DNA of 34,438 bases from Thiomicrospira cyclica (GTDB lineage: Bacteria; Pseudomonadota; Gammaproteobacteria; Thiomicrospirales; Thiomicrospiraceae), in contig DYST01000008.1 in NCBI GenBank assembly GCA_020726325.1, positions 1 through 34,438 of the forward strand, in the 5' to 3' direction. Positions 582-20,876 of the stretch are shown piece after piece. Under the pieces are notes generated by a model that did no database searches, was not told where the DNA came from, and saw only the letters and a list, made by a program, of their open reading frames with translations. A program made the translations under genes and the position numbers. The first letter of the stretch is position 1, and each line of letters opens with the position of its first letter.

Positions 582-607
582 AGTGTTCCTGATGCTGGGG
601 TTTGTCC

Positions 608-613
608 TATAAT
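608..613 (+). promoter_or_regulatory. -10 element upstream of rep
   Basis: A perfect TATAAT lies 32 nt before the GTG start of rep. No good -35 hexamer is found 16-18 nt upstream, so the promoter would be weak or activator-dependent. This is a prediction from the sequence only. Confidence 0.35.
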
Positions 614-640: not shown

Positions 641-645
641 TTCCT

Positions 646-2643
646 GTGCAACTTAATCCAGCTCAATTACAAGCGGTTCACCTCACTCAAGGTCAAGTAT
701 TGGTATTGGCGGGGGCAGGTTCTGGTAAAACACGGGTGATTACCGAAAAAATCGCCTACTTAATCGAAAAAGAAGGACATAACCCAAAAGGCATTTATGC
801 CGTTACTTTTACCAATAAAGCAGCGAAAGAAATGCAGCATCGTCTTAGTCAACGGCTAGGCGATTCAGGGCGGGGTGTTCAGGTATCGACTTTCCATACG
901 CTTGGGCTAGATATTTGCCGACGCGAATACAAAGCCTTAGGGATTAGGCATAGTTTTTCGTTATTTGATGATGCCGATAGCATGCAACTGTTACGTGAGT
1001 TGAGTCGTGACGATGAGGTAGATTCTGAGCGACTTAAGGTAGCTCGTCATGCCATTTCCTTAGCTAAAAATCGTTTACAGTCACCGCAGTTTTTGCTCGA
1101 AAGTGCCAGTAATGACGATGAAGCCTATATTGCCCGACTCTATGCCGCTTATCAGGAAAGTTTACAGGCTTATTCGGCACTCGATTTTGATGATTTAATC
1201 GCCCGTGTGGTGTGGTTATTTCAATCGCACCCCGATATTCACCAAAAATGGCGGCACAAGGTGCGTTATTTATTAGTCGATGAATATCAAGATACTAATC
1301 CCGTACAATTTGCCCTCATGAAGCTCTTAGCAGGCACACAAGGGCACTTTACCTGTGTCGGAGACGATGACCAGTCGATTTATGCGTGGCGTGGTGCAGC
1401 GCCTGAAATTCTCAGTCAGTTACAAAGTGATTATCCTGCACTAACCTTGGTAAAGCTTGAGCAAAACTACCGTTCTAGCGCACGCATCTTACAAGCTGCC
1501 AACCAACTGATTACCAATAATCCCCATTTGTTTGTTAAAACCTTATGGTGCGATCGTGGGCTAGGGGACAAGGTGCGTATTTTAGCCTGTCCCGATGAAA
1601 CCACCGAAGCCGAACGCATTGTCAGCGAGTTGCTGGTACATAAAATAAAAAACCAAACCCACTGGCGCGATTATGCCATTTTGTACCGTAGCAATCATCA
1701 GGCTCGATTAGTCGAGCGTGCCTTGCGTGAGCAAGAAATTCCCTACAGCATTTCGGGTGGACAGTCGTTTTTTGACCGCATCGAAATTAAAGATGTCTTG
1801 GCCTACCTGCGATTATTAGATAATCCCGATGATGACGCGGCTTTCTTACGCATTGCCAATACCCCTAAACGCGATTTAGGACCACAGACGCTCTCGAAAC
1901 TATCCGACTATGCCAAGGGTAGGGGGGTGAGTCTACTTGCTGCCTGTGGCGAGTTTGGCTTGACACAAGTGATGCCAGAACGTGCGATGATCCAACTCAT
2001 TCGTTTTACCGAATTTTTAGAGCGTTGGCGACCCGAATTCGGTGGCATGGAGCTACCCAATCAACTGATGCAATTTTTAACTGATTTGCAGTACGAAGTG
2101 TGGTTGATGGAATGTGCGGAAAACCCCAAAAAGGCAGTACGCCAGTGGGAAGCGGTACTCGACTTGCTCAAATGGATTGGCAGACTGGTCGAAAAACATG
2201 ATGGTGCTTGGGATTTATCCGAAATCGTCCGCCATTTAACGCTCATGAATACGCTCGAACGTCAAAGCGAGGACAAAGAAAAAGATGAAGCCTCGCTAAT
2301 GACTTTACATGCCGCCAAAGGACTTGAGTTTGGTCATGTCTTTTTGATGGGTATGGAAGAGGGGATATTACCGCATCAAAACAGCATTGACTCAGGCGAT
2401 GTCGAAGAAGAACGTCGTTTAGCATATGTCGGCATTACCCGTGCCGAGCGATCACTGACCATCAGTTATGCCCGTACTCGCAAACGCTATGGTGAGCAAA
2501 GCAGCACCACACCGAGTCGCTTTTTAGACGAGTTACCGCTCGATGATATTTATTGGGAAGGTAAAGATGAAGAAGCCGACACAGAGGTTAAGGCTCAGAC
2601 GGCAGCGAATCATTTGGCTGCCATGCGGGCGATGCTGGGATAA
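646..2643 (+). CDS. rep: ATP-dependent DNA helicase Rep (UvrD/PcrA superfamily 1)
   Basis: A 3'-5' superfamily 1A helicase that clears protein roadblocks ahead of the replisome. The protein is 665 residues against about 673 for E. coli Rep and aligns with it from the first residues (MQLNPAQLQAV). Visible motifs: Walker A AGAGSGKT at 22-29, motif Ia TFTNKAA, the Rep-type STFHTLGLDI, Walker B LLVDEYQDTN near 212, QSIYAWRGA, the motif IV stretch LEQNYRSS, and C-terminal LMTLHAAKGLEF and RRLAYVGITRA. Rep rather than UvrD is supported by the short C-terminus ending in HLAAMRAMLG and by SLFDDADS near 105. The start is GTG with little Shine-Dalgarno sequence. It converges on the 30-aa microprotein gene, with 4 nt between the stop codons. 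Confidence 0.95.
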   Translation: MQLNPAQLQAVHLTQGQVLVLAGAGSGKTRVITEKIAYLIEKEGHNPKGIYAVTFTNKAAKEMQHRLSQRLGDSGRGVQVSTFHTLGLDICRREYKALGIRHSFSLFDDADSMQLLRELSRDDEVDSERLKVARHAISLAKNRLQSPQFLLESASNDDEAYIARLYAAYQESLQAYSALDFDDLIARVVWLFQSHPDIHQKWRHKVRYLLVDEYQDTNPVQFALMKLLAGTQGHFTCVGDDDQSIYAWRGAAPEILSQLQSDYPALTLVKLEQNYRSSARILQAANQLITNNPHLFVKTLWCDRGLGDKVRILACPDETTEAERIVSELLVHKIKNQTHWRDYAILYRSNHQARLVERALREQEIPYSISGGQSFFDRIEIKDVLAYLRLLDNPDDDAAFLRIANTPKRDLGPQTLSKLSDYAKGRGVSLLAACGEFGLTQVMPERAMIQLIRFTEFLERWRPEFGGMELPNQLMQFLTDLQYEVWLMECAENPKKAVRQWEAVLDLLKWIGRLVEKHDGAWDLSEIVRHLTLMNTLERQSEDKEKDEASLMTLHAAKGLEFGHVFLMGMEEGILPHQNSIDSGDVEEERRLAYVGITRAERSLTISYARTRKRYGEQSSTTPSRFLDELPLDDIYWEGKDEEADTEVKAQTAANHLAAMRAMLG

Positions 2644-2647
2644 TCTG

Positions 2648-2740
2648 TTAGTGTTTGCGTGTCATGATATGAATTGCAGACACAATAATTGCAATCAGAA
2701 AAATAGTAACAGCTAATGTTTGAGCAGTCTCTAGTTCCAT
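2648..2740 (-). CDS. 30-aa single-pass membrane microprotein downstream of DUF475 gene
   Basis: Too short for the ORF track. The minus strand reads MELETAQTLAVTIFLIAII and then VSAIHIMTRKH, stop. One hydrophobic helix (residues about 8-24) is preceded by acidic residues and followed by a basic tail, suggesting N-out/C-in orientation. The start lies 2 nt after the DUF475 stop, and GGAG sits 5 nt before the ATG, so coupled translation is likely. I do not recognise a family. Comparable microproteins often bind and modulate a membrane partner, and the DUF475 transporter-like protein is the obvious candidate; that is inference. Confidence 0.6.
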   Translation of the reverse strand: MELETAQTLAVTIFLIAIIVSAIHIMTRKH

Positions 2741-2742
2741 TA

Positions 2743-3771
2743 TTACTCCGCCGCCAAAGCTTCTTTCTTGTTCCAGCGAATTGACGACCACATCCCTGCC
2801 GAAATAAAGACAATACCAATCAAGCCCGTAATAATCTCTGGTACTTCGGTGTGCATCGAAATAAACATAATGGTTGCTAAAGCACCGATGGCATAATGCG
2901 CACCATGATCGAGATAACGATATTCGTTCAGCACGCCATGATTAACCAGTGACATGGTAATAGAGCGAACAAACAAAGCACCAACCCCCAAACCCAGCAT
3001 GATAATTACCACATCTTTGGTAATGGCAAAAGCACCAATAACACCATCAAAACTAAACGATGCATCGAGTACTTCTAAATATAAAAATGATGCCAAGCCA
3101 GTGCGTGCAGCCGTACCCACCACGTCAATGCCAGTTTCCATATTGGCTTCCATCAATTTATTGATAGACTCTAAAAGAACAAACGTAATCACACCTGCAA
3201 TACCTGATATGAGTGCACCAGCTTGCTGTTCAGCTGGCAAAAAGCTCACGCTCAATAATAACAAGCCCAAAGCAAAAATGATCTCGAGTGATTCGAGTTG
3301 TCCCATTTTCGATAACCAGGCTTCGCCTTTACCCAGCCAATGCGCTTCTTTGTCATCATCAAAAATAAAACCTAAAAAGACCATGAGCAAGAAAATACCA
3401 CCAAAAGCAGCGACCTGAATGTGAGATGACTCTAAATGATGGGCGTAGGTTTCGCTGTCATAGAGTGCCATTTGCGCAACATCCCACATACTTAAACCTG
3501 CAATGAGCGCCACAATTACGAGCGGGAAGAGCACTCGCATACCAAAGACGGCAATGAGCATGCCCCAAGTCAAAAAGCGTTGCTGCCAAATGGGATCCAT
3601 TTTTTGCAAAATTTTGGCATTTACGACCGCATTATCAAAGGATAAACTAACCTCTAATACCATCAAAATGGCTGCGGCTGCCAAGCCTTCTAATCCAGCC
3701 CATACCCATGCTAAGTAGAGTGCGATCAGCATAAAGCCAATTGACCAGCGGAATTCTTTAATTAATATCAC
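2743..3771 (-). CDS. DUF475 / TerC-superfamily integral membrane protein
   Basis: The protein is 342 residues with about eight to nine hydrophobic segments. It carries acidic intramembrane motifs of the TerC/DUF475 group: EVSLSFDNAVVNA near residue 40 and the repeat-related EVLDASFSFDGVIGA near 235. In the TerC superfamily such Asp/Asn pairs are linked to metal-ion (often Mn2+) export or tellurite resistance; a specific substrate for DUF475 is not established. It starts with GTG, with AGGA about 9 nt upstream, giving an N-terminus (KEFRWSIGF) like relatives. It lies 50 nt downstream of the GGDEF/EAL gene on the same strand and is followed at once by the microprotein gene. Confidence 0.85.
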   Translation of the reverse strand: MILIKEFRWSIGFMLIALYLAWVWAGLEGLAAAAILMVLEVSLSFDNAVVNAKILQKMDPIWQQRFLTWGMLIAVFGMRVLFPLVIVALIAGLSMWDVAQMALYDSETYAHHLESSHIQVAAFGGIFLLMVFLGFIFDDDKEAHWLGKGEAWLSKMGQLESLEIIFALGLLLLSVSFLPAEQQAGALISGIAGVITFVLLESINKLMEANMETGIDVVGTAARTGLASFLYLEVLDASFSFDGVIGAFAITKDVVIIMLGLGVGALFVRSITMSLVNHGVLNEYRYLDHGAHYAIGALATIMFISMHTEVPEIITGLIGIVFISAGMWSSIRWNKKEALAAE

Positions 3772-3821
3772 CTGTTATTTTCCTATTATCATGTTTTCGT
3801 TTATTCTCTCATAAAATAAAC

Positions 3822-6536
3822 TTATTGCACAGTCCATTCTTCAGGAACATGAACGCCATAGCCCTGAGCTAAGTCAATGCCAATTTTTCTTAACTCTGAC
3901 AGAATAGCTTCATTTTCAACGTATTCAGCAATGGTTTTTAAACCAAACACCCCAGCCAGTTGATGCATATTGGCAACAATAGCGCGGTTAATCGCATCTT
4001 TATGGATATTATGCACAAAAGCACCATCAATTTTTAAATAATCAACAGGCATTTGACGCAAATAAGCAAAAGAAGATAAACCACTACCAAAATCATCCAA
4101 TGCTAATGATGAGCCTAAATCTTTAAGCAGCTTCATGCAGCGCAAAGCCTGTGTCAAATTCCCCATGGTCGCCGTTTCTGTGATTTCAAAACAGATACGC
4201 TCTGCGAGTTGTGGTTTTTGTGACAGTTCGTCATGGATAAACAATAAAAACTTCTCGTCTGTTAAAGATTGACCAGACAAATTAAGGCTATAAATGACAC
4301 CATCGTTACGTTTACTATCAATAATCTGTTCAATATTTTTCAGTGATTTTTGAATAATCCAACGATCTACTTTAGTCATGAGTCCATAACGTTCGGCAGC
4401 AGGAATAAATTGATTGGGCGATAGCAACTTACCCTGTTCATCTTTCATGCGTACAAGTACTTCTGCGTGTGGATGAATCCCTGTCAACGGTAGCATGTAC
4501 TGAATAAATAAAACAAGCCTATTTTCTTCAATTGCTCTAGGAATACGCTCAGTCCAAGCAAGTTCTTCTTGTCTTTGACGCATATCGATGTTGTCATTAT
4601 GTGCCGACTCAACACGATTCCGTCCTTTTTCTTTAGCAAGATAACAAGCGGTATCTGCTGAAATCAAACTTTGCTCAACCGAAAGACTCAGTTCATCAAT
4701 CATCACTAAGCCAATACTAACACCGATTTGAAAGCGTTTATCTTGCCAAATAAAAATAAAATGTTGAATGTCATGAATAATTTGCTTACAAATTTCAATA
4801 GACTTTTGCATGCTGGTATCAAACAGTAACAAACCAAATTCATCACCACCTAAACGTCCTAATATGGCATTTTCTGGAACGCTACGCAGAAAAATAGTGC
4901 CAGAAAGCTGACGTAATAGTTGATCTCCTGCCATATGCCCAGCAGTATCATTAACAATTTTAAATTGATCAAGATCGAGATAACAAAAAGCATGTTGTAT
5001 TTTATTTTTATGGGCATCAATAATTGCTTCGCGAATTTGATTTTCAAATTCGTAGCGATTAAACAATCCTGTTAAATGATCGCGTTTAGCCATATTTTCA
5101 ATTTGTAAACGCATCTCTTCTAAGTGTGTAACGTCATCTAATACTAAGGCAGCACCGTTAATTTTACCTTCAGAGTGACGCATGGGCGACAGAGTACAAT
5201 CAAGAAAAATGGGACTGCCGTCTTTACTCATTGTTTTGATGTTATGAATCTGGGTGATTTGATTATTTTCAATACAAGCAATCAAGCTATCCATTATTTT
5301 TTGTGCTTCTTTCCTAAATTGACTCGGATAAATATCAATTAATAGTCGTCCTTCTAATGGCTCAAAATCGTTATGATTTGTTAATATTTCTCGTGCTTTA
5401 GGATTCAGATATAACATACGCCCTAGGATATCTGTTGTAATCACACCTTCACCTAACGAGTTTAAGGTTGTTTCTGCTTGATCTCGTTCTTTTTTCAATG
5501 TTGCTTTTGCTAATACTCGTTCGTAGCGTTGAATATTTCTTTGTTTTAATAAGTAATAGAACAGGGTGGATAAGACTATTGCGGATAGGAGTAAACTAAA
5601 GGCAGCATACCAAGATAGTTTTTGCGCACCAGGCGTTGCTTGCATGCTAATAGTTATTGGTTTATCTAATAATGCTAAGGTTTGCGAGAAATGAATAATC
5701 GGTAACCAAGTTTTAGTAATTTCTTCTTTTTTATGACTAATATGCGTTACCATTACTTGTTTTGCAGCGCGATAAGTTTGAATACTCATATCATAAGCGA
5801 TATCTTCAATATCCATTTTTTTAATGGTATTTTTAAGCAAGTCATCTAAAAATATTTCTGTTGCAACCATTGCTTGAACATGTTCAGTACGTTTTTTTTC
5901 GGGAATATTATCAATAAAAGTTGTGTCATAAACAGGATGAAAGATCATTGTACCATGAGGGTTTTCAGCGGTGACATGTGACCAAGCTGCAATGGTTTTA
6001 TTTTTTTCAATCGCTTCATCAATGGCATCATGAAAATTAGGATAGCTATAAATATCACGTCCGAGATGTTTTAGCCCAGTCACTTTATTTTGTTTAACGG
6101 TTTCTGATGGAAAGTAAATGCTATTGCTGTTAAGCGGGTCTATTTCTGGATTACCAAAAACACGAAAATTTAAGTACCCATCTTCCTGTTTTTGCGCTTC
6201 ATATACTTTGAGTTGTTCACTTGTTATTTTAGGTAAAATAAAAAAACTAATATCTTCGCGATAATGACTTAAGGTTTGAATATAAAAGTTGATATCATTA
6301 TATTTTTGTAAACTATTTAGCGTTAAGGTATTGGCTACTAATCCATCTTCTAAGGCAATAATGGTAGCAAATTCACCACGGAAGCGTTCAGCAACACTGG
6401 TAAATATTTGTTCAAGTTCAGCGCGAGCATTTTGTTGTATCATAACAATAGATAACCACGATGCACTCACTAAGAGTAAAACGGTTACAATACTAAAAGT
6501 AAACCATGGAAAATTTTGATTATTCTCTGTTTTCAT
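3822..6536 (-). CDS. Membrane sensor with CHASE, PAS, GGDEF and EAL domains
   Basis: A dual-domain cyclic-di-GMP enzyme of 904 residues. Order: transmembrane helix at about 13-34; a periplasmic CHASE-like sensor (about 40-300, with the typical Y..H.GRDIYSYP segment); second helix at about 308-330; short coiled linker; PAS at about 350-470; GGDEF at about 480-640; EAL at about 660-900. The cyclase signature LGGDEF near 563 is intact, but the RxxD inhibitory I-site is not seen at its usual place (PENA instead). The phosphodiesterase domain keeps EVL in place of EAL, the Asn of LNLSGQSL, the Glu of CFEITE, DDFGSG and a final QGYG, so it may be active. ATGA overlaps the binding-protein gene upstream, so the two are almost certainly co-translated. 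Confidence 0.92.
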   Translation of the reverse strand: MKTENNQNFPWFTFSIVTVLLLVSASWLSIVMIQQNARAELEQIFTSVAERFRGEFATIIALEDGLVANTLTLNSLQKYNDINFYIQTLSHYREDISFFILPKITSEQLKVYEAQKQEDGYLNFRVFGNPEIDPLNSNSIYFPSETVKQNKVTGLKHLGRDIYSYPNFHDAIDEAIEKNKTIAAWSHVTAENPHGTMIFHPVYDTTFIDNIPEKKRTEHVQAMVATEIFLDDLLKNTIKKMDIEDIAYDMSIQTYRAAKQVMVTHISHKKEEITKTWLPIIHFSQTLALLDKPITISMQATPGAQKLSWYAAFSLLLSAIVLSTLFYYLLKQRNIQRYERVLAKATLKKERDQAETTLNSLGEGVITTDILGRMLYLNPKAREILTNHNDFEPLEGRLLIDIYPSQFRKEAQKIMDSLIACIENNQITQIHNIKTMSKDGSPIFLDCTLSPMRHSEGKINGAALVLDDVTHLEEMRLQIENMAKRDHLTGLFNRYEFENQIREAIIDAHKNKIQHAFCYLDLDQFKIVNDTAGHMAGDQLLRQLSGTIFLRSVPENAILGRLGGDEFGLLLFDTSMQKSIEICKQIIHDIQHFIFIWQDKRFQIGVSIGLVMIDELSLSVEQSLISADTACYLAKEKGRNRVESAHNDNIDMRQRQEELAWTERIPRAIEENRLVLFIQYMLPLTGIHPHAEVLVRMKDEQGKLLSPNQFIPAAERYGLMTKVDRWIIQKSLKNIEQIIDSKRNDGVIYSLNLSGQSLTDEKFLLFIHDELSQKPQLAERICFEITETATMGNLTQALRCMKLLKDLGSSLALDDFGSGLSSFAYLRQMPVDYLKIDGAFVHNIHKDAINRAIVANMHQLAGVFGLKTIAEYVENEAILSELRKIGIDLAQGYGVHVPEEWTVQ

Positions 6537-7501
6537 GGTTGACCTTCTTCTTTAAAAACAACAGATTGCCTAAGTATGGCATCGGGTAAGCGAAAATCTG
6601 TTGCGGATAATAAGGTTGGATTGTAGCGTGGAATAAAAATGCGATTAGGTATAATCGGAATTTGCCACGGCTGATCACCCTTAAATATGGTTTTACTTAA
6701 TTCAGCAGCCCAATGCCCAAACTCTTCTGGTGATTCAGATAAAGTAACCATACTATAAGGCAGCATAAAATCTTGGCTGGCAAAGGTAAAACGCTTATTG
6801 TTTGCCTTAATCCATGCTGTTGCCTCTTGTTTATCCCAATGATCAATACCTTGATCAGTTCCAAGTTCGATAACATCATATTTTTGAGCATCCGTAATGG
6901 CTGCTTTCCATTCATCGAAGTTTTTAACCAAATAACTGTGTAACTCGATTTTATTTTTTTTCATAATCCGTGCAATACCAGCAACATTATTCACTTCAAG
7001 TTCATTATTACTAGAAATAAATGCCACGTGATTAATATTGCCCACAATATTTTTCACCAGTCCAATACTTTGCTGTATTGGCCAAATCTCAGTCATGCCC
7101 GTTGCATTATCCATTGGATAGCCAAAGGGGCGAGGATCCCAATTAATTCCGACATAAACAACAGGTGTTCGTCCATTGCGTAAATAAGGACCAACGACAT
7201 ATTCACTGGCAGCATCATCAGCAGCAATAACAATATCAGGTTGAGAAAGCGAAATGAGACTGGCAATTTCCATGCCTTTATTTTTAAGTTGAGTGCTACT
7301 TTTAACGTTTTTTGCATTGAGATAATGATAAGAAATCTTACAGCTCTCTTTCATTTCGAGATTAAATTGTGCCTGAATACGATCACTCCATTCGTAGCCT
7401 TGATGATAGGAGTTAATATAAAAACAATTCATTGTTTGCGCTTGAGCCTGTACCATAAGCACAGTTAATGGATACAAAAAAGGAACTAACCACGGCTTCA
7501 T
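6533..7501 (-). CDS. Orphan ABC-type periplasmic substrate-binding protein
   Basis: A 322-residue protein with an N-terminal signal peptide (hydrophobic stretch then AQA, cleavage near residue 21). The rest resembles the ABC substrate-binding family PF04392 (TrpX-like): IVIAADDAASEYVV near 90, a TPVVYVGINWDP strand, and FISSNNELEVN at the start of the second lobe. No permease or ATPase gene is nearby. It starts immediately after the AI-2E stop (TAA then ATG, no gap) and overlaps the CHASE-GGDEF-EAL gene by 4 nt. This supports a role as ligand-sensing partner of that sensor rather than in transport; the ligand is unknown. Confidence 0.75.
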   Translation of the reverse strand: MKPWLVPFLYPLTVLMVQAQAQTMNCFYINSYHQGYEWSDRIQAQFNLEMKESCKISYHYLNAKNVKSSTQLKNKGMEIASLISLSQPDIVIAADDAASEYVVGPYLRNGRTPVVYVGINWDPRPFGYPMDNATGMTEIWPIQQSIGLVKNIVGNINHVAFISSNNELEVNNVAGIARIMKKNKIELHSYLVKNFDEWKAAITDAQKYDVIELGTDQGIDHWDKQEATAWIKANNKRFTFASQDFMLPYSMVTLSESPEEFGHWAAELSKTIFKGDQPWQIPIIPNRIFIPRYNPTLLSATDFRLPDAILRQSVVFKEEGQP

Positions 7502-8602
7502 TTAAGAATAATCCAATTGATGACGATGTTTGTGTTCGTACACATCGAACACAGTGATTGCCATGGCCGCCAACATAGGGCCAAAGACAAGTCCCATAAT
7601 ACCAAAATGCAGTAATCCAGCAAAGGTAGACAGTAAGGTTATCCATGTATGGTCAAGCACAGGATTACCATCACCATGTTGATTAAGTCCATTGAGCTTT
7701 TGAATCATTAAGGGTCGTAATAGGTTATCAATACCAAAACCAATTAATAACGCGCTGTAAGCAGCTGTGATGATCGCAAGCTCTGGGGCATCAAATGCCA
7801 TAAAATAAAGTGCGACAGAACCCCATACCAAAAAACCACCGACAATGGGTATAAAAGATGCAACCGCATATGCCAGCCCTAAAAATAACCAAGGCATACC
7901 CAATATAAACATCAAAAGCGCGAACACCATCCCTTGCAATAAAGCGATTCCTAAGACACTGATGGTTAGCACAGTCGATAAGTGAGCAAAACGATTCAGT
8001 AAAAAATAATCTAAATGATTTGTTAATGGTGATAGGGTAACAATGCGTCGAATGAATTGCTGACCATCACGATAAAAGAAAAATAAGCTAAATAGCGCGA
8101 TTGCCATAAATCCTGTAAAGCTGGCGATACCACTAAATAAGTTACTTGCAAGCCATAAACCTGCAGCTCTTGTTTTTTCAATCAGTGTTGGGAGTTGTTC
8201 CCTAATGCTATGTTCTAAATTTGTTTGCAAACTTTCTGTTAGCGGTAAGCTCGTAATGATATTGTGCTCTAATGCAGCCAAAGTTCCAGCAGGGCGTGTA
8301 TTAAGCCAGTGCTGACTTTGTGTTATTAGCTCCGCTCCCATGCGCCCACCTTCGGCTAATAGATAAGTAATGGGTAAGATAACTAATAAAAAAACTAAGG
8401 ATGTCATGATACCAGCTGCTGCATTCGCTGATAATTTAGCTTGTCGTTGTAAGCGTTGATAAAGTGAATAAGAAGATATTGCCAGCAGTAAGGCAAATAA
8501 TAAAGCAGGCAAAAACTGACCAAATAGCCATAATAATGAGGCTAATGATAATAAAAGCAAAGCCAATAAGAATGGCTCTTCGTAAGGGTGTTGTTTTTCC
8601 AT
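7502..8602 (-). CDS. AI-2E family (UPF0118/PerM-like) membrane transporter
   Basis: A 366-residue polytopic protein with paired helices at the N-terminus, a central soluble stretch (about 95-150) and several C-terminal helices. The GIDNLLRPLMI motif and the ending HFGIMGLVFGPMLAAMAI are hallmarks of the AI-2E transporter family. Members export small molecules or drive Na+/H+ exchange; the original link to autoinducer-2 rests on one member, so the substrate is open. It is the first gene of the run AI-2E, binding protein, GGDEF/EAL. Upstream is the repeat-containing gap; no clear Shine-Dalgarno is seen. Confidence 0.88.
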   Translation of the reverse strand: MEKQHPYEEPFLLALLLLSLASLLWLFGQFLPALLFALLLAISSYSLYQRLQRQAKLSANAAAGIMTSLVFLLVILPITYLLAEGGRMGAELITQSQHWLNTRPAGTLAALEHNIITSLPLTESLQTNLEHSIREQLPTLIEKTRAAGLWLASNLFSGIASFTGFMAIALFSLFFFYRDGQQFIRRIVTLSPLTNHLDYFLLNRFAHLSTVLTISVLGIALLQGMVFALLMFILGMPWLFLGLAYAVASFIPIVGGFLVWGSVALYFMAFDAPELAIITAAYSALLIGFGIDNLLRPLMIQKLNGLNQHGDGNPVLDHTWITLLSTFAGLLHFGIMGLVFGPMLAAMAITVFDVYEHKHRHQLDYS

Positions 8603-8649
8603 TAGCGTTTTGGTTATTCCATAGATGGCATAATACAGCGGATAATATG

Positions 8650-8820
8650 AATACTTAAGGAAGGTCTGAATAACGCGCTTTGCTTCTTATCCAGACTTCC
8701 TCGTTTAATTTTTTGTTTGGTGGCAGGGGTTAAATCAAGGGGTTGCTGCTCATATGGTGCAACCCTTCCCCCAAGCCCCCAACCCTTTCTTGTTTTTCAG
8801 ATCTGCCTTAATAAATACTT
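8650..8820. repeat. Inverted-repeat-bounded MITE- or REP-like element
   Basis: TTAAGGAAGGTCTGAATAA (8655-8673) recurs in inverted orientation as TTTTTCAGATCTGCCTTAA (8793-8811), about 16 of 19 positions matching. The left arm also forms its own hairpin with TTATCCAGACTTCC (8687-8700). The centre holds a third hairpin, GGGTTGC (8740-8746) with GCAACCC (8759-8765), beside a pyrimidine-rich CCC tract. About 165 bp, non-coding. This layout is typical of a small non-autonomous element, but no target-site duplication was identified. Confidence 0.45.
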
Positions 8821-8899
8821 ACGTTTCCTCTATTATCTCCTTGAATGAATAGAATAGCGAGTAGTTATTTTTTATACGTAGCAAGCTAAACAAACTATT

Positions 8900-8915
8900 G
8901 GGTTCACGTGAAACA
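8900..8915. promoter_or_regulatory. parS-like ParB-binding site (14/16)
   Basis: GGGTTCACGTGAAACA matches the near-universal parS consensus TGTTTCACGTGAAACA at 14 of 16 positions, with a perfect right half. It is intergenic, downstream of lysA, and the weakest of three such sites within 4.1 kb. Confidence 0.6.
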
Positions 8916-8977
8916 AATAGAATCATTTTCGCGCTCAAACCTAGGTAACGATAGCACAACTTAGTCAAAAACTTGAT

Positions 8978-10228
8978 CTAAATAAGTTGTTCAGCTCGCA
9001 TTAAATCATCCAGCGTTTCACGTTGGCGCACAATGTGGATAGTTGTATCATCAACCATAACTTCGGCAGCGCGAGGACGCGTATTATAGTTAGAGCTCAT
9101 CACAAAGCCATATGCACCCGCTGATAAGACAGCCAAATAATCACCCTCTTGTACTGCAAGCAGACGTTGCTTTCCTAAAAAGTCACCCGTTTCACAGACA
9201 GGACCAACAATATCAAATAACTGCTTTTCATCGTCTGTTTCTTGCACTTCACAAATATTTTGCCATGCACCATAAAGCGATGGACGAATTAAGTCATTCA
9301 TTGCCGCATCAACAACAGCAAAATGTTTGCCTTCGTTTTCTTTCAAATATTCAACTTTTGTGATGAGTACACCGTTATTACCCACAATGGCACGCCCAGG
9401 CTCTACCAATATTTCCATATCAGGTTGTGCAATCGCTTGCACAATCGCAGTAACATATTCCGCAGGGGAGGGGGCAGAATCGCTATCTTGATAGTTAATA
9501 CCCAAACCACCACCCATATCAATGTGCTGCAAATAAATGCCTTCAGCTGCAAGTTTCTGTTGAAAAGCAACGACGCGTTTCGCTGCTTCTTGTATGGGAC
9601 TTAAGTCTAAGAGTTGTGACCCAATATGGCAGTCGATTCCATGAACCACCAAATGAGCAGAAGCAGCGGCATAACGATAGAGCTCGAAAGCCTTGTCAAA
9701 AGAAACACCAAACTTGTTTTCTTTAAGTCCCGTCGAAATGTAAGCGTGGGTTTTAGGGTCAACATCAGGATTAACGCGAATCGAAATCGTCGCTGGCGTT
9801 GCTTCTTCTGCTGCAATTTTTTCAAGACGATACAGCTCTGCTTCAGATTCGATATTAAAGCATTTAATGCCGCTTTGTAGCGCGAAACGCATTTCGTTTG
9901 TTGTTTTACCAACTCCCGAAAAGACGACATTGGCAGCATTACCACCAGCACTTAAGACGCGGGCTAATTCACCACCAGAGACGATATCAAAGCCTGCACC
10001 TAGTTGTGCTAGGGTTTGTAATACAGCAAGATTGCTGTTTGTTTTAACCGCGTAGCAGACAAGATGCGGTTGTTGTGCAAAAGCAGCATCAAATGCTTGC
10101 CAGCGTTGGCGAATCCCATTACGGCTATAAACATAGCAAGGGGTATCTACCTGTTGGGCAATTTGAATTAAGTTGCAGTTTTCAATATGTAAAGTGCCAT
10201 TAATGCGCTGAATAGAATCGAGAGTCAT
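8978..10228 (-). CDS. lysA: Diaminopimelate decarboxylase
   Basis: A PLP enzyme that decarboxylates meso-diaminopimelate to L-lysine, the last step of lysine synthesis. The 416-residue protein has the PLP-lysine motif CYAVKTNSN near 62, the HIGSQ motif near 195, the glycine-rich phosphate-binding MGGGLGI, EPGRAIVGNNG near 280, the cysteine motif GPVCETGD from the partner subunit's active site, and GAYGFVMSSNYN near the end. It starts at ATG 20 nt after lptM, the usual lptM-lysA arrangement in gammaproteobacteria. dapF, often next, is not here: a non-coding gap follows instead. Confidence 0.96.
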   Translation of the reverse strand: MTLDSIQRINGTLHIENCNLIQIAQQVDTPCYVYSRNGIRQRWQAFDAAFAQQPHLVCYAVKTNSNLAVLQTLAQLGAGFDIVSGGELARVLSAGGNAANVVFSGVGKTTNEMRFALQSGIKCFNIESEAELYRLEKIAAEEATPATISIRVNPDVDPKTHAYISTGLKENKFGVSFDKAFELYRYAAASAHLVVHGIDCHIGSQLLDLSPIQEAAKRVVAFQQKLAAEGIYLQHIDMGGGLGINYQDSDSAPSPAEYVTAIVQAIAQPDMEILVEPGRAIVGNNGVLITKVEYLKENEGKHFAVVDAAMNDLIRPSLYGAWQNICEVQETDDEKQLFDIVGPVCETGDFLGKQRLLAVQEGDYLAVLSAGAYGFVMSSNYNTRPRAAEVMVDDTTIHIVRQRETLDDLMRAEQLI

Positions 10229-10248
10229 GATACTTGCTTCGCTGTATT

Positions 10249-10383
10249 TTATTGAGATGAATGAGGTTGGGATTGCGCTTGTACTGCTGTGCTTGTTGGA
10301 TTTGGTTGCGGTAGCAGATTTCCTTTTTTACCACAAGCCAATAAAAACACAGTGATACTGATAACAAACAGACCACGGTACAT
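10249..10383 (-). CDS. lptM: LptM-like small lipoprotein (44 aa)
   Basis: Missed by the ORF track because of its size. Minus-strand ATG at 10383 gives a short hydrophobic leader ending in the lipobox LLAC (Cys17), followed by GKKGNLLP and a Gln/Pro/Ser-rich tail. This matches the LptM (formerly YifL) family, whose members read C-G-x-K-G-x-L-x-x-P after the lipobox and sit just upstream of lysA. LptM binds the LptD/BamA assembly and promotes oxidative maturation of the LPS translocon. GGAA lies about 9 nt before the ATG. The lipobox, motif and position together make the call firm. Confidence 0.88.
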   Translation of the reverse strand: MYRGLFVISITVFLLACGKKGNLLPQPNPTSTAVQAQSQPHSSQ

Positions 10384-10451
10384 GAATTAAATTTCCAATT
10401 AAAAATGAATTAGACATAGTTTACTCGAATTATTGTTAATTGTTCGTTTAT

Positions 10452-10468
10452 TTGGCACTGGATTTGCT
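10452..10468 (+). promoter_or_regulatory. Sigma-54 (RpoN) -24/-12 promoter for the HugZ-like gene
   Basis: TTGGCACTGGATTTGCT matches the sigma-54 consensus YTGGCACG-N4-TTGCW at all core positions except the G after TGGCAC. GG and GC spacing is exact. Transcription would start near 10479, about 29 nt before the ATG at 10508. No enhancer-binding site was identified. Confidence 0.55.
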
Positions 10469-10507
10469 AAAATTACAGTAATAATAGCCTTGTCATTGGA
10501 ATTATTT

Positions 10508-11035
10508 ATGACTGAAACGATAACAAAGGTACAGGCTGATTTTAATCAGTTTATTTTAGGTTTTAATACGTTAACCTTAGCGACAGTTTCCGCTGATGGG
10601 ATTCCCGAAGCGAGTTATGCACCCTTTATTCGTGTTGCTGGTGTTTGGTATGTTTTTGTTAGTGAACTGGCGCAGCACACGCAAAATTTAATGGTGATGC
10701 CTCAAGCTTCTGTGTTGTTAATTGAGGCAGAGCAAAATACGGTGAATCTATTTGCTCGTAAGCGAGCTTCTTTTCAAATGCGTGTGCATGAAGTTTCACG
10801 TGAAACATCAGAATGGCATGATATTATCGATGCTTTTGAGGTGCGATTTGGTGATATTGTTAGTATGATTCGTGGCTTGAGCGATTTTCATTTAATGGCA
10901 TTAACCCCAATTTCGGGAAGTTTTGTTCGTGGTTTTGCACAGGCATTTGTTTTAGGTGGCGAAGACATGCTATTAGTAGCCAATCGTCGTGAGCGTGAGG
11001 CTAGGGCTTCTTCTGCAGGTGGAAATCGTGCGTAA
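10508..11035 (+). CDS. HugZ-like heme-utilisation protein (pyridoxamine-phosphate-oxidase fold)
   Basis: The ORF track begins upstream at 10433, but the homologous part starts at MTETITKV, where ATG 10508 has GGA 7 nt before it and follows a predicted sigma-54 promoter; this gives 175 residues. The N-terminal split barrel (LATVSADGIPEASYAPFI, WYVFVSEL, HTQNLMVMPQASVLLIE) is the PNPOx-like fold. The C-terminal RFGDIVSMIRGLSDFHLMALTP then GSFVRGFAQAF is typical of the HugZ heme-degradation group. I infer a heme- or flavin-binding role, likely in iron acquisition. A 15/16 parS palindrome lies inside it (10792-10807). Its 3' end overlaps the start of the PilZ gene. Confidence 0.82.
   Translation: MTETITKVQADFNQFILGFNTLTLATVSADGIPEASYAPFIRVAGVWYVFVSELAQHTQNLMVMPQASVLLIEAEQNTVNLFARKRASFQMRVHEVSRETSEWHDIIDAFEVRFGDIVSMIRGLSDFHLMALTPISGSFVRGFAQAFVLGGEDMLLVANRREREARASSAGGNRA
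10792..10807. promoter_or_regulatory. parS site (15/16) inside the HugZ-like gene
   Basis: AGTTTCACGTGAAACA differs from the parS consensus only at the first base. It is read in the gene as VSRET, the same peptide as at the second intragenic site in cysM. Confidence 0.8.
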
Positions 11036-11960
11036 TGTGAGACGTTATTTTAGGCTTGACGTACAGGTTCCTGCTGTTGTCAAGCTTGCTGATAAGGACG
11101 AAGTCATTCGTATGGTTTTGCCCGAGTTAGCAGGTGGTGTATGGCATCATAGCGAGTTAGTTTTAGATAAAAAAACGGAACAACTTGTTGATCGGGTCGG
11201 TAAGGATAATGAAACTGCTGGTAAGATTTTACGTGATTTACAGCAACGTTCTGTCATGCTTGCAGAAGCTATTTTATGGTTGGTGCAAGGTGAACAGCCG
11301 CAGGATAAAATTACAAATTATGTTCATCGTCGTAATATTGCCGCACTGGTTACGCACTTAAAAGCGGGTAGCTATACGGTCGACATGTTTCGTGCTTTTA
11401 ATGAAAAAATAGAGTTTTATTTTTCGGTTGTTGATGCGGCGGCAAATAAAAACTATCTCGCTTTTTTAGATATGATGAAGGCTGTTGAGTTTTCTTTTGC
11501 TGTTTTTGTGCCTGATTTAATCAAGAAAGCAGATACTAATCTTGTGCTGGCGCAAGCGATATTATCACTACATAATAAACTTGAACGTCATGTAGACTTT
11601 TTAAATAAGTTTCGTCAAGAAGCCTCATACATGGTGAATAAAGATTCTTGGCCGATTCGTAAAGTTAATTTGAGTGCGGGTGGTTTTGGTTTTTTGAGTA
11701 CCCATCCTTATCCTAAGTTTGCACGTTTGGTTATTAATTTTCGTATCGGAGAGAAACAAGAAGCCTTTCATATGACAGGCAACATTGTGAGTAGTCGAAC
11801 GCTATCTGATGGTGAGCATCATATTGCGATTGAATTTACCAATGCTACTGAAGAAATCCAAAATCGATTGATTATTTTATTGCAGAATGAAGAGTTAAAT
11901 CAGGTGATGGAATATGTTGCCCGCTCTGAAAAACCAAAAATTGTGGAAGAAGATTGGTAA
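11028..11960 (+). CDS. PilZ-domain protein (predicted c-di-GMP effector)
   Basis: The protein shows the two PilZ signatures, but far apart: an Arg-rich RNVRRYFRLDV at the very N-terminus (RxxxR-like) and NLSAGGFGF (N/D-x-S-x-x-G) near residue 219, with about 200 residues of predicted helix between. This split or extended layout resembles longer PilZ proteins that carry a helical insert. The ORF track starts at GTG 10989; I prefer GTG 11028 because AGGTGG lies 5 nt before it and the motif follows immediately, giving 310 residues. The start overlaps the HugZ-like stop by 8 nt, so the two are probably co-translated. The downstream target is unknown. Confidence 0.78.
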   Translation: MRNVRRYFRLDVQVPAVVKLADKDEVIRMVLPELAGGVWHHSELVLDKKTEQLVDRVGKDNETAGKILRDLQQRSVMLAEAILWLVQGEQPQDKITNYVHRRNIAALVTHLKAGSYTVDMFRAFNEKIEFYFSVVDAAANKNYLAFLDMMKAVEFSFAVFVPDLIKKADTNLVLAQAILSLHNKLERHVDFLNKFRQEASYMVNKDSWPIRKVNLSAGGFGFLSTHPYPKFARLVINFRIGEKQEAFHMTGNIVSSRTLSDGEHHIAIEFTNATEEIQNRLIILLQNEELNQVMEYVARSEKPKIVEEDW

Positions 11961-11995
11961 GTTTATAACAGCACAAACAAAGATAATAGAAGCAA

Positions 11996-12412
11996 ATGGC
12001 AATATTACATGACTATGAAGATCGACTGATTCGATTATTACCGCCTAATGCGCAGCACGTTGCAGAAATGTTGCTTGCGCGTTTATCCTTGGCACAAATG
12101 TTAGAAATGCGTGACAACGAGGAAATAGATATACGCTTATTGTCTGAGCATAATGTGCATCAGGAGTTTTGGCCAAAAATTTTACGTGCCGTTATTTTAG
12201 CCAAGGTGACTTATTTTGATCCGTCTGAGTTTTTAGATCAGTCAAAAGTGTTATTTTTAGTTAAATTGGCTGTAGAGGCGGCAGGTTTTAGTTTGTCTAC
12301 GCCTTTACCGCAGGTTGTCGCTGCGGTAAAGACAGACTATCTTCGCCTCACCAAATGGTTAATTATGATGGCACAACTATTAGGTAAGTTACGTGCAGCT
12401 AATACTAAATAA
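11996..12412 (+). CDS. Hypothetical protein, helical, 138 aa
   Basis: I do not recognise this protein. It is predicted to be mostly helical, without signal peptide or clear membrane segment, with Leu-rich stretches (LLPPNAQHVAEMLLARLSLAQML) and basic C-terminal residues. It lies 35 nt downstream of the PilZ gene on the same strand and is probably its operon partner. Its last 24 nt overlap the 3' end of cysM on the opposite strand, so the two converge with no space for a terminator outside coding sequence. A role in the same signalling pathway as the PilZ protein is only a guess from position. Confidence 0.6.
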   Translation: MAILHDYEDRLIRLLPPNAQHVAEMLLARLSLAQMLEMRDNEEIDIRLLSEHNVHQEFWPKILRAVILAKVTYFDPSEFLDQSKVLFLVKLAVEAAGFSLSTPLPQVVAAVKTDYLRLTKWLIMMAQLLGKLRAANTK

Positions 12413-13297
12413 TCCGCTAGATAAGTAACGATCACCACGATCACAGACAATCGTAACAATGGTGGCATTGTTGAGTTCTTGCGCCAGCGTAATTGCTGCT
12501 GCCATCGCACCACCAGAAGAAACACCAGAAAAAATACCTTCTTGCTGGGCAAGTTGACGCATGGTTTCTTCGGCTTGATGTTGAGCAATATCGATAATAC
12601 GATCGACACGAGCAGGATCGAATATTTTAGGAAGATATTCCTTAGACCAGCGACGAATACCGGGAATTTGCGCCCCTTCGCTTGGTTGTACACCAATAAT
12701 CTGTACTTTGGGGTTCTGTTCTTTTAAAAACATACTTGTACCCATAATCGTTCCCGTTGTCCCCATTGCTGATACAAAGTGAGTAACCTTGCCTGCTGTT
12801 TGTTGCCAAATTTCGGGACCTGTGCTCTGATAATGTGCTAAATAATTATCAGGATTAGAAAACTGATCGAGCAAAAATCCTTCGCCGTTAAGTGCCATTC
12901 TCTGTGCGAGATCACGAGCACCTTCCATTCCTGTTTCACGTGAAACACAAATAAGTTCTGCGCCATATGCCAGCATGGCATCTTTGCGCTCCTGCGTCAT
13001 ATTGTTGGGCATAATCAGCTTCATTTTATAACCACGCATGGCAGCAACCATCGCTAAGGCAATGCCTGTATTGCCGCTGGTTGCTTCGATCAGCGTATCA
13101 CCGATACGAATATCACCTCGCTTTTCGGCTTGCAAAATCATATTAAAAGCGGGTCGGTCTTTGACCGAGCCAGCAGGGTTATTGCCTTCTAATTTAGAAA
13201 GAATGGTGTTTCCTCTACTGTCTTGGTAAAGGCGTTGAATCGCGACTAAGGGTGTATTGCCGACAGTATCAGCGAGAGTAGGGGAGTTGTGCGTCAT
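12389..13297 (-). CDS. cysM: Cysteine synthase B (O-acetylserine sulfhydrylase)
   Basis: A PLP enzyme making L-cysteine from O-acetylserine and sulfide or thiosulfate. The protein is 302 residues against 303 for E. coli CysM and aligns throughout. Signatures: PLP-lysine NPAGSVKDRPA near 47, substrate loop EATSGNTGIALA near 70, phosphate-binding GTTGTIMG near 175, and GVSSGGAMAA near 255. The stretch GMEGARDLAQRMA and the ending CDRGDRYLSSG favour CysM over CysK. The C-terminal tail after that motif is short. A perfect parS palindrome is embedded at 12932-12947, encoding CVSRET just before GMEGARD. Its start lies 6 nt after the trmB stop, so the two are probably co-transcribed. Confidence 0.93.
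   Translation of the reverse strand: MTHNSPTLADTVGNTPLVAIQRLYQDSRGNTILSKLEGNNPAGSVKDRPAFNMILQAEKRGDIRIGDTLIEATSGNTGIALAMVAAMRGYKMKLIMPNNMTQERKDAMLAYGAELICVSRETGMEGARDLAQRMALNGEGFLLDQFSNPDNYLAHYQSTGPEIWQQTAGKVTHFVSAMGTTGTIMGTSMFLKEQNPKVQIIGVQPSEGAQIPGIRRWSKEYLPKIFDPARVDRIIDIAQHQAEETMRQLAQQEGIFSGVSSGGAMAAAITLAQELNNATIVTIVCDRGDRYLSSGLFSISCT
12932..12947. promoter_or_regulatory. parS site, perfect 16/16, inside cysM
   Basis: TGTTTCACGTGAAACA is identical to the consensus ParB-binding palindrome. A specific 16-mer is expected by chance about once in four billion bases, so with two near-copies within 4 kb this is very unlikely to be coincidence. Confidence 0.92.
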
Positions 13298-16955: not shown

Positions 16956-17783
16956 GTGAACGCAAGGCACTTGTTAAAAAGCCTAGCACTGGTTGCTGGG
17001 CTTTTTGCATTGGGGCAAGCCCATTCCAATGATGATTGTTTGCCTACTAAAATAGATGTCGAAGCAAAAGTTGCCATTGTTTATGATGGTGATACTTTTC
17101 TAATCGGTAATCAGTATGTGCGGTTAACAGGCGTACATGTGCCATCGTCATCGCAGCATTTGGTACCTCCTGAACCCTTAGGTAAGGCAGTTGCCCAAGC
17201 TGTGGGTGAGTTAATTTCGCGTAGTCACAGTAATCTCAAAATTGAATATGATCAGCTTAAAAGTGAAGAGGGTAAATTGTTTGTTCATGCTTATTTAGAG
17301 GATGGACGCAATTTAGCTCAGGTTTTGCTCGAAAATGGGTTCGCTTTGGTTGAGACTAGATTACCGAATTTACGTCATGTTCAGTGTTATCGTGAAGCAG
17401 AAACTAAGGCGCGAGAGTCTAAAAAAGGACTTTGGCAATATGCCGATAAGGGTGTGCCCTTAATTGAATCAAAAGATTTGACGGGTGAACGTGCAGGTTT
17501 TCAGATTGTGCGTGGCAAAGTTGTCTTGGCAAAACAAGGCGAAAACTACTTTATTCTGAATATGGATACCATCGGTTTTCGTATTAGTAAAGAAGCAATG
17601 GCGTTGTTTAATGAGCGTGACCTGTTGATGTTACAAGGAAAAACGCTTGAGGTTAGAGATAATCTAACTTATTACAAGGGTACCATGTTTTCATTGTTGG
17701 AACATCCAGGTCAAATTAATGTGCTTGCTGATAAATTTTATGCGGAGCAAGCAAAGCTTGCCGCAAAACAGCTTAGAAAATAA
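16956..17783 (+). CDS. Exported SNase-like (thermonuclease fold) protein, probably inactive
   Basis: A secreted or periplasmic protein; the signal peptide is [20 protein letters not shown]. The SNase-like fold is shown by [19 protein letters not shown] and LLENGFALV. Relative to staphylococcal nuclease the metal/catalytic positions look changed: the RLLLVDTPE block reads RLTGVHVPS, so Asp40 and Glu43 are absent, and the Arg87 position appears to be Lys. Catalysis is therefore doubtful. The last third (about 165-275) is an extra domain I do not recognise. The ORF track starts at GTG 16944; GTG 16956 gives a cleaner signal peptide, and neither has a good ribosome site. The rpmE2 terminator overlaps this signal sequence. 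Confidence 0.75.
16976..17006 (+). terminator. Intrinsic terminator of rpmE2, inside the SNase-like coding region
   Basis: AAAAAGCCTAGCA pairs with TGCTGGGCTTTTT: a 13-bp stem with one G-T wobble and a 5-nt loop CTGGT. The descending arm ends in TTTTT, so it fits a Rho-independent terminator. It falls on the codons of the downstream signal peptide. Confidence 0.75.
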
Positions 17784-17812
17784 TTTTTTATATCGTAATT
17801 AGGAAAGTCATA

Positions 17813-18886
17813 ATGTCTGTTGAATTGAAAAATGATCGTTTTTTGCGCGCGTTATTGCGTCAGCCTGTTGATACTACGCCAGTGTGGATGATGCGTCAGG
17901 CGGGGCGTTATTTGCCAGAGTATCGCGCAACGCGGGCGAAAGCGGGCAGTTTTATGGCGTTGTGTACCAATCCTGAGTTGGCATGTGAAGTGACTTTGCA
18001 GCCACTTGAGCGTTACGATTTAGATGCCGCAATTTTGTTTTCGGACATTTTGACGATTCCTGATGCCATGGGCTTGGGCTTGAGTTTTGCACAAGGCGAA
18101 GGTCCGCAGTTTGCACGTCCAATTACCTGTAAAGCGGATGTTAATAAAATCGGGGTTCCAGATCCAGAAGGTGAATTGAAGTATGTGATGGATGCTGTAC
18201 GCACCATTCGTCGTGAATTGAATGGTCGCGTGCCATTAATCGGCTTTTCGGGTAGTCCTTGGACGCTGGCAACTTATATGGTTGAGGGTGGTAGCAGTAA
18301 GACTTTTTCTAAAATCAAGGCGATGATGTATAACGAGCCAGCAACGGTGCATGTATTGTTAGATAAGTTAGCTCAATCTGTAACAAGTTACTTGAATGCA
18401 CAAATTGCTGCGGGTGCGCAGGTCGTACAAATTTTTGATACCTGGGGTGGGGCGTTATCGACACCAGCTTTTCGTGAGTTTTCATTACGCTATATGCAGC
18501 AAATCGTGTCGGGTCTAACGCGTGAAGCCGATGGTCGAGTTGTACCTGTCATTCTATTCACCAAGGGCGGTGGTCAGTGGGTCGAAGAAATTGCAGCTAC
18601 GGGTGCGGATTGTGTCGGGTTAGATTGGACGGTTGAGTTGGGTGATATTCGTGCCCGTGTTAAAGATGGTGTGTCTTTACAGGGGAATATGGATCCTGGT
18701 TTGCTTTATGCGCGTCCTGAAGTGATTGATGCTGAAGTGGCACGCATTTTAGCGAGTTTTGGTCAACATAGCGCGACGAGTGGGCATGTGTTTAACCTTG
18801 GGCATGGTATTCATCCTGAGATCAATCCAGAGCACGTTAAGGCATACATTGATGCAGTGCATAAACATGGTAAGCAGTTTCATTAA
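17813..18886 (+). CDS. hemE: Uroporphyrinogen decarboxylase
   Basis: Converts uroporphyrinogen III to coproporphyrinogen III in heme synthesis, without cofactor. The 357-residue length is standard. Family signatures: the N-terminal [16 protein letters not shown] near 23-38, the substrate-binding [15 protein letters not shown] near 76, [13 protein letters not shown] near 145, and C-terminal [16 protein letters not shown] near 330. AGGAAAG lies before the ATG. The rsuA-like gene begins within the hemE stop (TAATG), so they are translationally coupled. Confidence 0.97.
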
Positions 18887-19581
18887 TGACACTTCTACAA
18901 GCATTACAAAGCCAAGGCATTGGTAGTCGAAAGCTGTGCTTAGCCATTATCGATGCAGGTGAAGCCTTAGTTGACGGTGTTCCTTGTACCAGTGCAAAAC
19001 AGAAAGTAGATGGCGATCAGGTCAGCTTTTTTTTCGATGGCGAGCTTTGTTGTTGTGTCGATCGCATCGTTATTATGCTCAATAAGCCATTAGGCTATGA
19101 GTGTTCGGCAAGACCAAACTACCATCCTAGCATTTTGGATTTATTGCCGCCTTTTTTTAGAGCCAGAAATGTGCAGCCTGTTGGACGCTTAGATGTCGAT
19201 ACCAGTGGGCTGTTGATTTTGACCGATGATGGACAGCTCATTCATCGTTTGACGCATCCTAAAAAACACATCGAAAAAGTGTATCAGGTCACAACGGTTG
19301 CTCCGATTAACGATCAGCAAATTGCCTGTTTATGGGAGGAGATTCATCTTAACGATGAGCCAAAACCAGTGAAAGCATTAAGGGTGACGCAAACAAGCGA
19401 GCATAGTTTGGAGTTGGTGATTGATGAGGGGCGTTATCATCAAGTGCGGCGTATGTTGGCGGCTGTGGGTAATCGTGTGGATCAGTTGACACGCACCCAA
19501 GTTGGTAATTTGATTCTGCCAGCTGATTTGATCGCTGGACAGTGGGTTGGCGTCGATGAGAATATGATCGGGATTGACTAG
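18886..19581 (+). CDS. rsuA: Pseudouridine synthase, RsuA family
   Basis: The 231-residue protein has an N-terminal S4-like RNA-binding domain (GIGSRKLCLAIIDAGEALVDG) and a C-terminal pseudouridine synthase domain. The catalytic Asp sits in PVGRLDVDTSGLLILT near 105, and GRYHQVRRMLAAVGN is the conserved RNA-binding segment. MLNKPLGYECS near 65 resembles RsuA, which makes pseudouridine 516 in 16S rRNA; RluE/RluF-like specificity cannot be excluded. Its start overlaps the hemE stop by 1 nt. Confidence 0.88.
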   Translation: MTLLQALQSQGIGSRKLCLAIIDAGEALVDGVPCTSAKQKVDGDQVSFFFDGELCCCVDRIVIMLNKPLGYECSARPNYHPSILDLLPPFFRARNVQPVGRLDVDTSGLLILTDDGQLIHRLTHPKKHIEKVYQVTTVAPINDQQIACLWEEIHLNDEPKPVKALRVTQTSEHSLELVIDEGRYHQVRRMLAAVGNRVDQLTRTQVGNLILPADLIAGQWVGVDENMIGID

Positions 19582-19628
19582 AGTAGCGTTGAGCACTCAA
19601 TCATCATTAAGAAGTTGTGTGCTTCTCG

Positions 19629-19637
19629 TGGTATGAT
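19629..19637 (+). promoter_or_regulatory. Extended -10 promoter for the mutarotase gene
   Basis: TGGTATGAT fits an extended -10 (TGn plus TATGAT, 5/6). No good -35 hexamer was found at standard spacing, which is normal for this promoter type. The predicted start is near 19644, 34 nt before the ATG. Confidence 0.4.
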
Positions 19638-19677
19638 TTGCCCTTAACCTATTCTGTGCCATTTTAAGGAGTCTCAT

Positions 19678-20562
19678 ATGTCTGATCTTCAATCGTTTGC
19701 TATCGAAAACCACCTTTCTTTTGTGCAGCAAGGTGACTTGACCTTAGCCGTATTACATGCAGATGTAGGGCATGTGCGTGTCGCTTTACAAGGTGCGCAG
19801 GTATTAGATTGGACGCCAACAAATGAAGCAACATCTGTTATCTGGGTTAGTGATGCGGCTGTTTATCAGACAGGTAAGGGCGTTCGTGGTGGTGTTCCTG
19901 TCTGTTGGCCTTGGTTTGGTGCTGGGGATGCTGGTAAGCCTGCTCATGGTTTTGTTCGTACTAAATTGTGGTCTGTCGAGGCAAGCGGTGTTAGTGATGC
20001 GGGTGTATGGTTACGCCTAACAACCAGCGATGATGAAGCTTCGCGTGCCTTGTGGCATCACGCGTTTAAGTTGTCTTTAACCCTAACCTTAGGGGCTTCT
20101 TTGGCTATCGAGTTAACGACAGAAAATACAGGTAATGCCGATTTTACAATTGCTGAAGCCTTGCATACTTATTTTGCCATTGGTGATGTGGATGCGGTAA
20201 AGGTTACAGGTTTGGATGGTGTGAGCTATCTTGATAAAGTCTTAGATATGACACAGCACGTGCAAGCGGGTGATGTCGCTATTGTTGGTGAAGTTGATCG
20301 CGTTTACGTGAACACAACGAGTGAAACGGCGATTGTCGATGCCAGTTTAGGGCGAGATATTGTTATTAGTAAAGCCAATAGCAGTGCAACCGTGGTCTGG
20401 AATCCTGGTAGTGAAAAAGAGAAGGGTTTTGCTGACATGAATACTGGCGATTATCGCAAGATGTTATGTGTTGAGTCTGGAACGGCTGGTGGCGACGTTA
20501 TTACCGTTGCGGCAGGCACAAGTCATACCCTAAGCGTTGACTATGCGGTGCGTCGTGGCTAA
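19678..20562 (+). CDS. D-hexose-6-phosphate mutarotase (YeaD-like aldose 1-epimerase)
   Basis: Interconverts alpha and beta anomers of glucose-6-phosphate and related sugars. The 294-residue protein shows the family motifs GVRGGVPVCWPWFG near 76, PAHGFVRTKLW near 95 with the catalytic His, EALHTYFAIGD near 163, and VVWNPGSEKEKGFADM near 240. AAGGAG lies 6 nt before the ATG, a strong ribosome site. It is preceded by its own extended -10 promoter and overlaps the next small gene. Confidence 0.93.
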   Translation: MSDLQSFAIENHLSFVQQGDLTLAVLHADVGHVRVALQGAQVLDWTPTNEATSVIWVSDAAVYQTGKGVRGGVPVCWPWFGAGDAGKPAHGFVRTKLWSVEASGVSDAGVWLRLTTSDDEASRALWHHAFKLSLTLTLGASLAIELTTENTGNADFTIAEALHTYFAIGDVDAVKVTGLDGVSYLDKVLDMTQHVQAGDVAIVGEVDRVYVNTTSETAIVDASLGRDIVISKANSSATVVWNPGSEKEKGFADMNTGDYRKMLCVESGTAGGDVITVAAGTSHTLSVDYAVRRG

Positions 20563-20872
20563 TATCGATATCGATCAGCTGACACAAGCGGAGCTGATGG
20601 CATTAAACGAGCGCGTTGTCGCTCGTTTACGCCTGTTACAGCAAATGAATGCGCATCAGCAGATGCTTGATTTTACGGTCGGCGAGCGTGTACAGTTTCA
20701 AACCGATCGTGGTTGGGTGCGTGGCACTTTAACGAAGTACAATCGGAAAACGGTCACTGTCTTATCTGAAGATGGGACGCGTTGGAATGTATCGCCATTT
20801 TTGCTTAAGCGCGTTGCACCAAAGCCTGTTAATCCCAATGAACCGCAAGGATGGGTGGTATTAGAGGGCTAA
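20555..20872 (+). CDS. Hypothetical protein with SH3/KOW-like C-terminus
   Basis: I do not recognise a named family. An N-terminal amphipathic helix (LTQAELMALNERVVARLRLLQQM) precedes a beta-rich part (FTVGERVQFQTDRGWVRGTLTKYN, TVTVLSEDG, WNVSPFLLKRV) that resembles a small SH3-like or KOW-like barrel, a fold common in nucleic-acid-binding proteins. The ORF track begins at TTG 20537; GTG 20555 or ATG 20543 are more natural, and both overlap the mutarotase stop. Positional coupling to the mutarotase suggests co-transcription but no shared function. It converges on the HDOD gene, 4 nt apart. Confidence 0.65.
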   Translation: MANIDIDQLTQAELMALNERVVARLRLLQQMNAHQQMLDFTVGERVQFQTDRGWVRGTLTKYNRKTVTVLSEDGTRWNVSPFLLKRVAPKPVNPNEPQGWVVLEG

Positions 20873-20876
20873 TTTG

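Follow-up and report, generated by a model that had tools for sequence, protein, structure and literature searches.

The window, meaning the whole 34,438-nucleotide stretch that was analyzed, is contig C80 of draft genome G000 (1,846,858 bases in 110 contigs; 81% complete). It carries three palindromes resembling the chromosomal centromere site parS, in the following setting:

1 to 645, no strand assigned: left contig end, with a truncated methyltransferase gene and the region upstream of rep (tblastn match of 74% between the truncated gene and its counterpart on the left side of rep in the congener G017)
8900 to 8915, no strand assigned: parS-like site A, GGGTTCACGTGAAACA, 14/16 matching positions, in the intergenic region between the AI-2E-transporter gene and lysA
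10433 to 11035, plus strand: hutZ-like heme utilization gene, host of site B (NCBIfam TIGR04110, E 2e-43, under the curated cut-off)
10792 to 10807, no strand assigned: putative parS site B, AGTTTCACGTGAAACA, 15/16, within hutZ
12389 to 13297, minus strand: cysM (cysteine synthase B), host of site C (NCBIfam PRK11761 / TIGR01138, above cut-off)
12932 to 12947, no strand assigned: putative parS site C, perfect TGTTTCACGTGAAACA, 16/16, within cysM

A recount in the window reproduced the coordinates and match counts (14/16, 15/16, and 16/16) of the original prediction, which had read these palindromes as a chromosome partition locus. Both mismatches of site A fall in one arm, the second arm being perfect and the CACGTG core intact. 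Site C forms the codons V-S-R-E-T of cysM on the minus strand, and site B encodes the same five residues, so that two of the three sites are in coding sequence. Such a cluster is indeed far beyond chance, as had been claimed: 100 dinucleotide-preserving shuffles of the window gave a mean of 0.30 matches at up to 3 mismatches, and none of them reached three. A scan of the draft genome at up to two mismatches to TGTTTCACGTGAAACA found sites A, B, and C only, all within 4.05 kb and with no extra sites spread evenly over the genome, and a reversed control pattern gave 0 matches in the draft genome at the same threshold. The probability of three random places falling within 4 kb of 1.85 Mb is ~1.4e-5. 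With three mismatches allowed, 11 further scattered matches appeared versus 7 for the control pattern, and this level is therefore background. Given the 81% completeness of the draft, more parS sites may be missing from it. Outside the window, the analysis covered the draft by searches and by chosen pieces of sequence.

LysA from the window shares 73 to 76% identity with the MAGs "Thiotrichales bacterium 35-46-9," "Gammaproteobacteria bacterium JN10.006," and "Thiotrichales bacterium 2016_B01_C_3," and 57 to 60% with Thiomicrorhabdus, Thiomicrospira, and Hydrogenovibrio. The source of the window is a Thiotrichales MAG of a genus near Thiomicrorhabdus/Thiomicrospira, not Pseudomonas. As originally noted, no parA or parB gene lies within the window; the pair belongs to a gidB-parA-parB operon on contig C66, with one clear full chromosomal ParB gene. 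A chromosomal ParB, whose absence would have counted against a partition locus, is thus present. The ParB protein has the Pfam domains ParB_N, HTH_ParB, and ParB_C, and ParA has AAA_31. Alignment with Noc structures showed that this ParB has R/L/K/G where Noc has its specificity residues Q/K/K/R. The absolutely conserved parS-specific state is R173 with G201 (Caulobacter numbering), while the Noc type has Q173/R201 (PMC7383237). Since the G000 protein carries the parS-type R173/G201 residues rather than the Noc-type pair, it should recognize parS and not the Noc site.

We compared the locus with three congeners (G001, G008, and G017), which share the gene order rep-TM-GGDEF/EAL-ABCsub-AI2E-lysA-(hutZ)-PilZ-orf138-cysM-trmB-mutY. 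Used as a query against genome contigs, the PilZ protein retrieved no relative. A parS sequence occupies the positions of both site B and site C in all three congeners, the G017 copy of site B having 3 mismatches. In cysM, which is 69 to 73% identical in nucleotide sequence between divergent members (94.5% between G001 and G008), the site C codons GTT TCA CGT GAA ACA are identical across the four genomes (5/5); outside the site, 39/196 codons for invariant residues are. The longest identical cysM block in all four genomes is a 17-bp stretch at site C, followed by one of 9 bp. At site B, hutZ has been lost in G001 and G008, yet the site is kept in their lysA-PilZ intergenic region (in G001, locus L037 on contig C19, near 21540 to 21869), while G000 and G017 have hutZ with the site inside it. 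Frozen cysM codons and a site B that outlives hutZ argue that the DNA site, and not the peptide, has been kept; judged from these alignments, sites B and C are conserved as DNA, independently of the coding needs of their host genes.

The same observations bear on the idea that the palindromes are sites for an unrelated CACGTG-recognizing regulator, or are simply coding coincidences in cysM and hutZ. Two of the sites do read V-S-R-E-T in frame, as a coding coincidence would, but site B persists outside genes in two congeners, synonymous positions of cysM are frozen at site C, and the same 16-mer recurs in unrelated genes of sister genera at similar distances from the origin. We regard this explanation as extremely improbable.

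Site A fared differently, and the reading of all three palindromes as parS stands for sites B and C, which are conserved in the congeners, but not as firmly for the site at 8900. No counterpart was found in the same intergenic region of the three congeners, where the best match had 7 to 8 mismatches, and it is the only site collected in the family with an altered third base. Site A is the weakest of the three and genome specific, and its lack of conservation in congeners makes it less secure than B and C. It might accordingly be a chance or decayed near-match, B and C alone being real parS, and reversed-pattern controls suggest that roughly 0 to 3 random matches per genome would be expected at up to two mismatches. 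However, it is unlikely that a chance match in a genome of 1.85 Mb would fall within 2 kb of two real sites, and site A keeps one perfect arm and the CACGTG core, a configuration bound in vitro by Pseudomonas aeruginosa ParB, which binds two-mismatch sites with one perfect arm (PMC4368675). Dismissing site A therefore seems to us rather unlikely to be right.

The original prediction placed the cluster near oriC. We found an oriC-like element, a DnaA-box cluster with an AT-rich stretch, on contig C77 of the same genome (positions 6155 to 6380), between nitroreductase and transporter genes; mnmG is also on C77. In G008 (contig C78), a nitroreductase gene and a membrane-transporter gene flank a DnaA-box cluster and its AT-rich sequence, the same flanked cluster occurs at a contig end in G001 (C76), and in G017 (C8) the cluster is upstream of the same transporter gene. 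DnaA boxes also occur next to a nitroreductase gene of this type in the single-contig genomes of two other genera, G005 (at 1,903,842) and G024 (at 54,641), with a GC-skew sign change at the homologous spot in both. Two other placements were rejected: the dnaA and parAB contigs of G000 (C9 and C66) have no box cluster, and on G017 contig C4 the skew stays below zero for the most part and the cumulative curve falls through both parB and dnaA.

Contig C77 ends just beyond a lipoprotein gene, and the window starts within the methyltransferase gene preceding rep. In G017 and G008 one extra gene separates the lipoprotein and methyltransferase genes, which implies an assembly gap of ~0.9 to 1.1 kb between C77 and C80. 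With the contigs joined in this way, synteny would put oriC about 5.6 to 5.8 kb past the left edge of the window. By congener gene order and the same inferred join, sites A, B, and C would be about 14.6, 16.5, and 18.6 kb from the predicted oriC (range, 14.6 to 18.7 kb), all on one side, in agreement with the proximity that had been proposed. Distances from the sites to the element on single contigs of congeners are 16.0 and 18.1 kb in G017 and 19.9 and 22.1 kb in G008. In other genera of the family, parS is likewise found on this side of the element, at 15.3 and 17.4 kb (G005), 6.8 to 13.8 kb (G007), and 13.4 to 43 kb and beyond (G024), the family-wide distance to that spot being 7 to 43 kb. 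The origin arm bearing the sites also carries rep, lysA, cysM, trmB-mutY, hemE, and gltBD. The suggestion that lysA is origin proximal is right for this genus but fails for the family as a whole, since lysA is ~150 to 575 kb from dnaA in sister genomes. Farther along the window, an Mrr-type restriction endonuclease gene (Mrr_N and Mrr_cat; 29876 to 30847) is found downstream of gltBD.

Two additional sequences were observed in congeners. A two-mismatch parS-like sequence, TGTTTCACGTGAATCC, lies at 4872 to 4887 of G001 contig C76 (locus L049), on the arm opposite to the sites and ~4.7 kb from oriC, within a gene for a glycolate-oxidase-type iron-sulfur subunit. A 4,537-base contig of G017 (C111; locus L048) with a G+C content of 38% carries a perfect parS together with part of a second dnaA gene and is probably a contaminant in the G017 MAG.

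GC skew in the window could be taken to mean that the origin is in the window itself, at the skew switch near 9 to 10 kb, with the parS sites around it. The cumulative skew has its minimum at ~10.0 kb, third-position skew is mostly positive from lysA rightwards regardless of gene strand, and this sign flip at ~9 to 10 kb, instead of at the predicted oriC, is evidence counter to our placement. However, no DnaA-box cluster was found in the window, where the best score was 3 versus 7 to 9 at the C77 and congener elements, and the skew minimum was rejected as an origin on that ground. The C77-type element, in contrast, is conserved across genera, matches the position of the skew switch in G005 and G024, which belong to two other genera, and marks the passage from strongly negative to neutral skew on C77 and in G017. 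We thus consider an origin within the window very improbable. Skew is near neutral from the predicted oriC to the parS sites (window positions 1 to 10000, C77 positions 7000 to 10860, and G017 contig C8 positions 17500 to 32500), becoming positive only near site A, and the genes at 2743 to 10228 are head-on to the expected fork. Since the window has no DnaA-box cluster, its skew would represent a plateau and not a second origin, perhaps arising from a rearranged head-on lysA block.

The arrangement has close parallels. P. aeruginosa has four parS sites less than 16 kb from the origin, one of which suffices (PMC4368675). Like the G000 sites, its parS1 to parS4 are perfect and near-perfect 16-bp palindromes clustered less than ~20 kb from oriC, and its parAB genes lie elsewhere in the origin region (PMC4368675). 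Strain PAO1 differs in having ten TGTTCCACGTGGAACA-type sites, including origin-distal ones, whereas the G000 draft has three of the TGTTTCACGTGAAACA type, and its parAB genes are ~7 kb from oriC, while those of G000 are on the separate contig C66 (PMC4368675). Closer by, the Thiomicrorhabdus/Thiomicrospira relatives G005, G007, and G024 share with G000 both the consensus and the side of the oriC-like element, but carry parS in other genes (DUF58/MoxR-type in G005), and some sister genomes have more sites. The G005 pair is 2.1 kb apart, like the G000 pair, and was suspected to occupy the same genes; its host genes proved unrelated.

The Spo0J/parS system of Bacillus subtilis has the same core consensus, TGTTTCACGTGAAACA, but includes more sites and is coupled to SMC, whereas a canonical SMC gene was not detected in the present genus. 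No match to TIGR02168 above cut-off was found in G000, G001, G008, or G017, though ParB is present, nor in the genomes sampled from genera g2, g3, and g6 (the list of genomes without a match includes G002, G003, G006, G015, G024, and G030); canonical SMC is present in the sister genera g5 (G005) and g7 (G007). Four weak SMC hits were scanned as MksB/SMC-like candidates; three were chemotaxis receptors, and one was a weak, subthreshold SMC_N match. An origin-proximal parS cluster without canonical SMC condensin might mean that ParABS acts here without the ParB-dependent SMC loading of model species, with parS retained solely for segregation by ParA or to serve a different condensin, an idea we put forward tentatively and at somewhat less than even odds. 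The absence of SMC is only a mildly unusual point.

Altogether, the sites, unique in the draft genome, the ParA/ParB pair, and the nearby predicted oriC support the chromosome partition reading. We put at roughly 95% the probability that the three palindromes serve a ParABS system as its chromosomal parS sites, grouped to one side of oriC, with ParB binding predicted from sequence. In the general ParABS model, ParB loads at parS and spreads in the form of a CTP clamp, while ParA separates the replicated origin regions (reviewed in PMC7333895). By extension from this established system, ParB dimers would load at the sites described here, close as CTP clamps, and spread, and the ParB-DNA complex would stimulate ParA, which would move the duplicated origin regions away from each other. 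Nucleation would probably occur mainly at sites C and B, with A serving as an accessory site of lower affinity. The mechanism is textbook, and the locus adds another example of the well-known ParABS type. For a Thiotrichales genus represented by draft genomes, the result locates the chromosome centromere and thereby points to the likely replication origin. Synonymous cysM codons frozen at site C and a site B that has outlived hutZ also make it a clean natural case of parS kept by selection.
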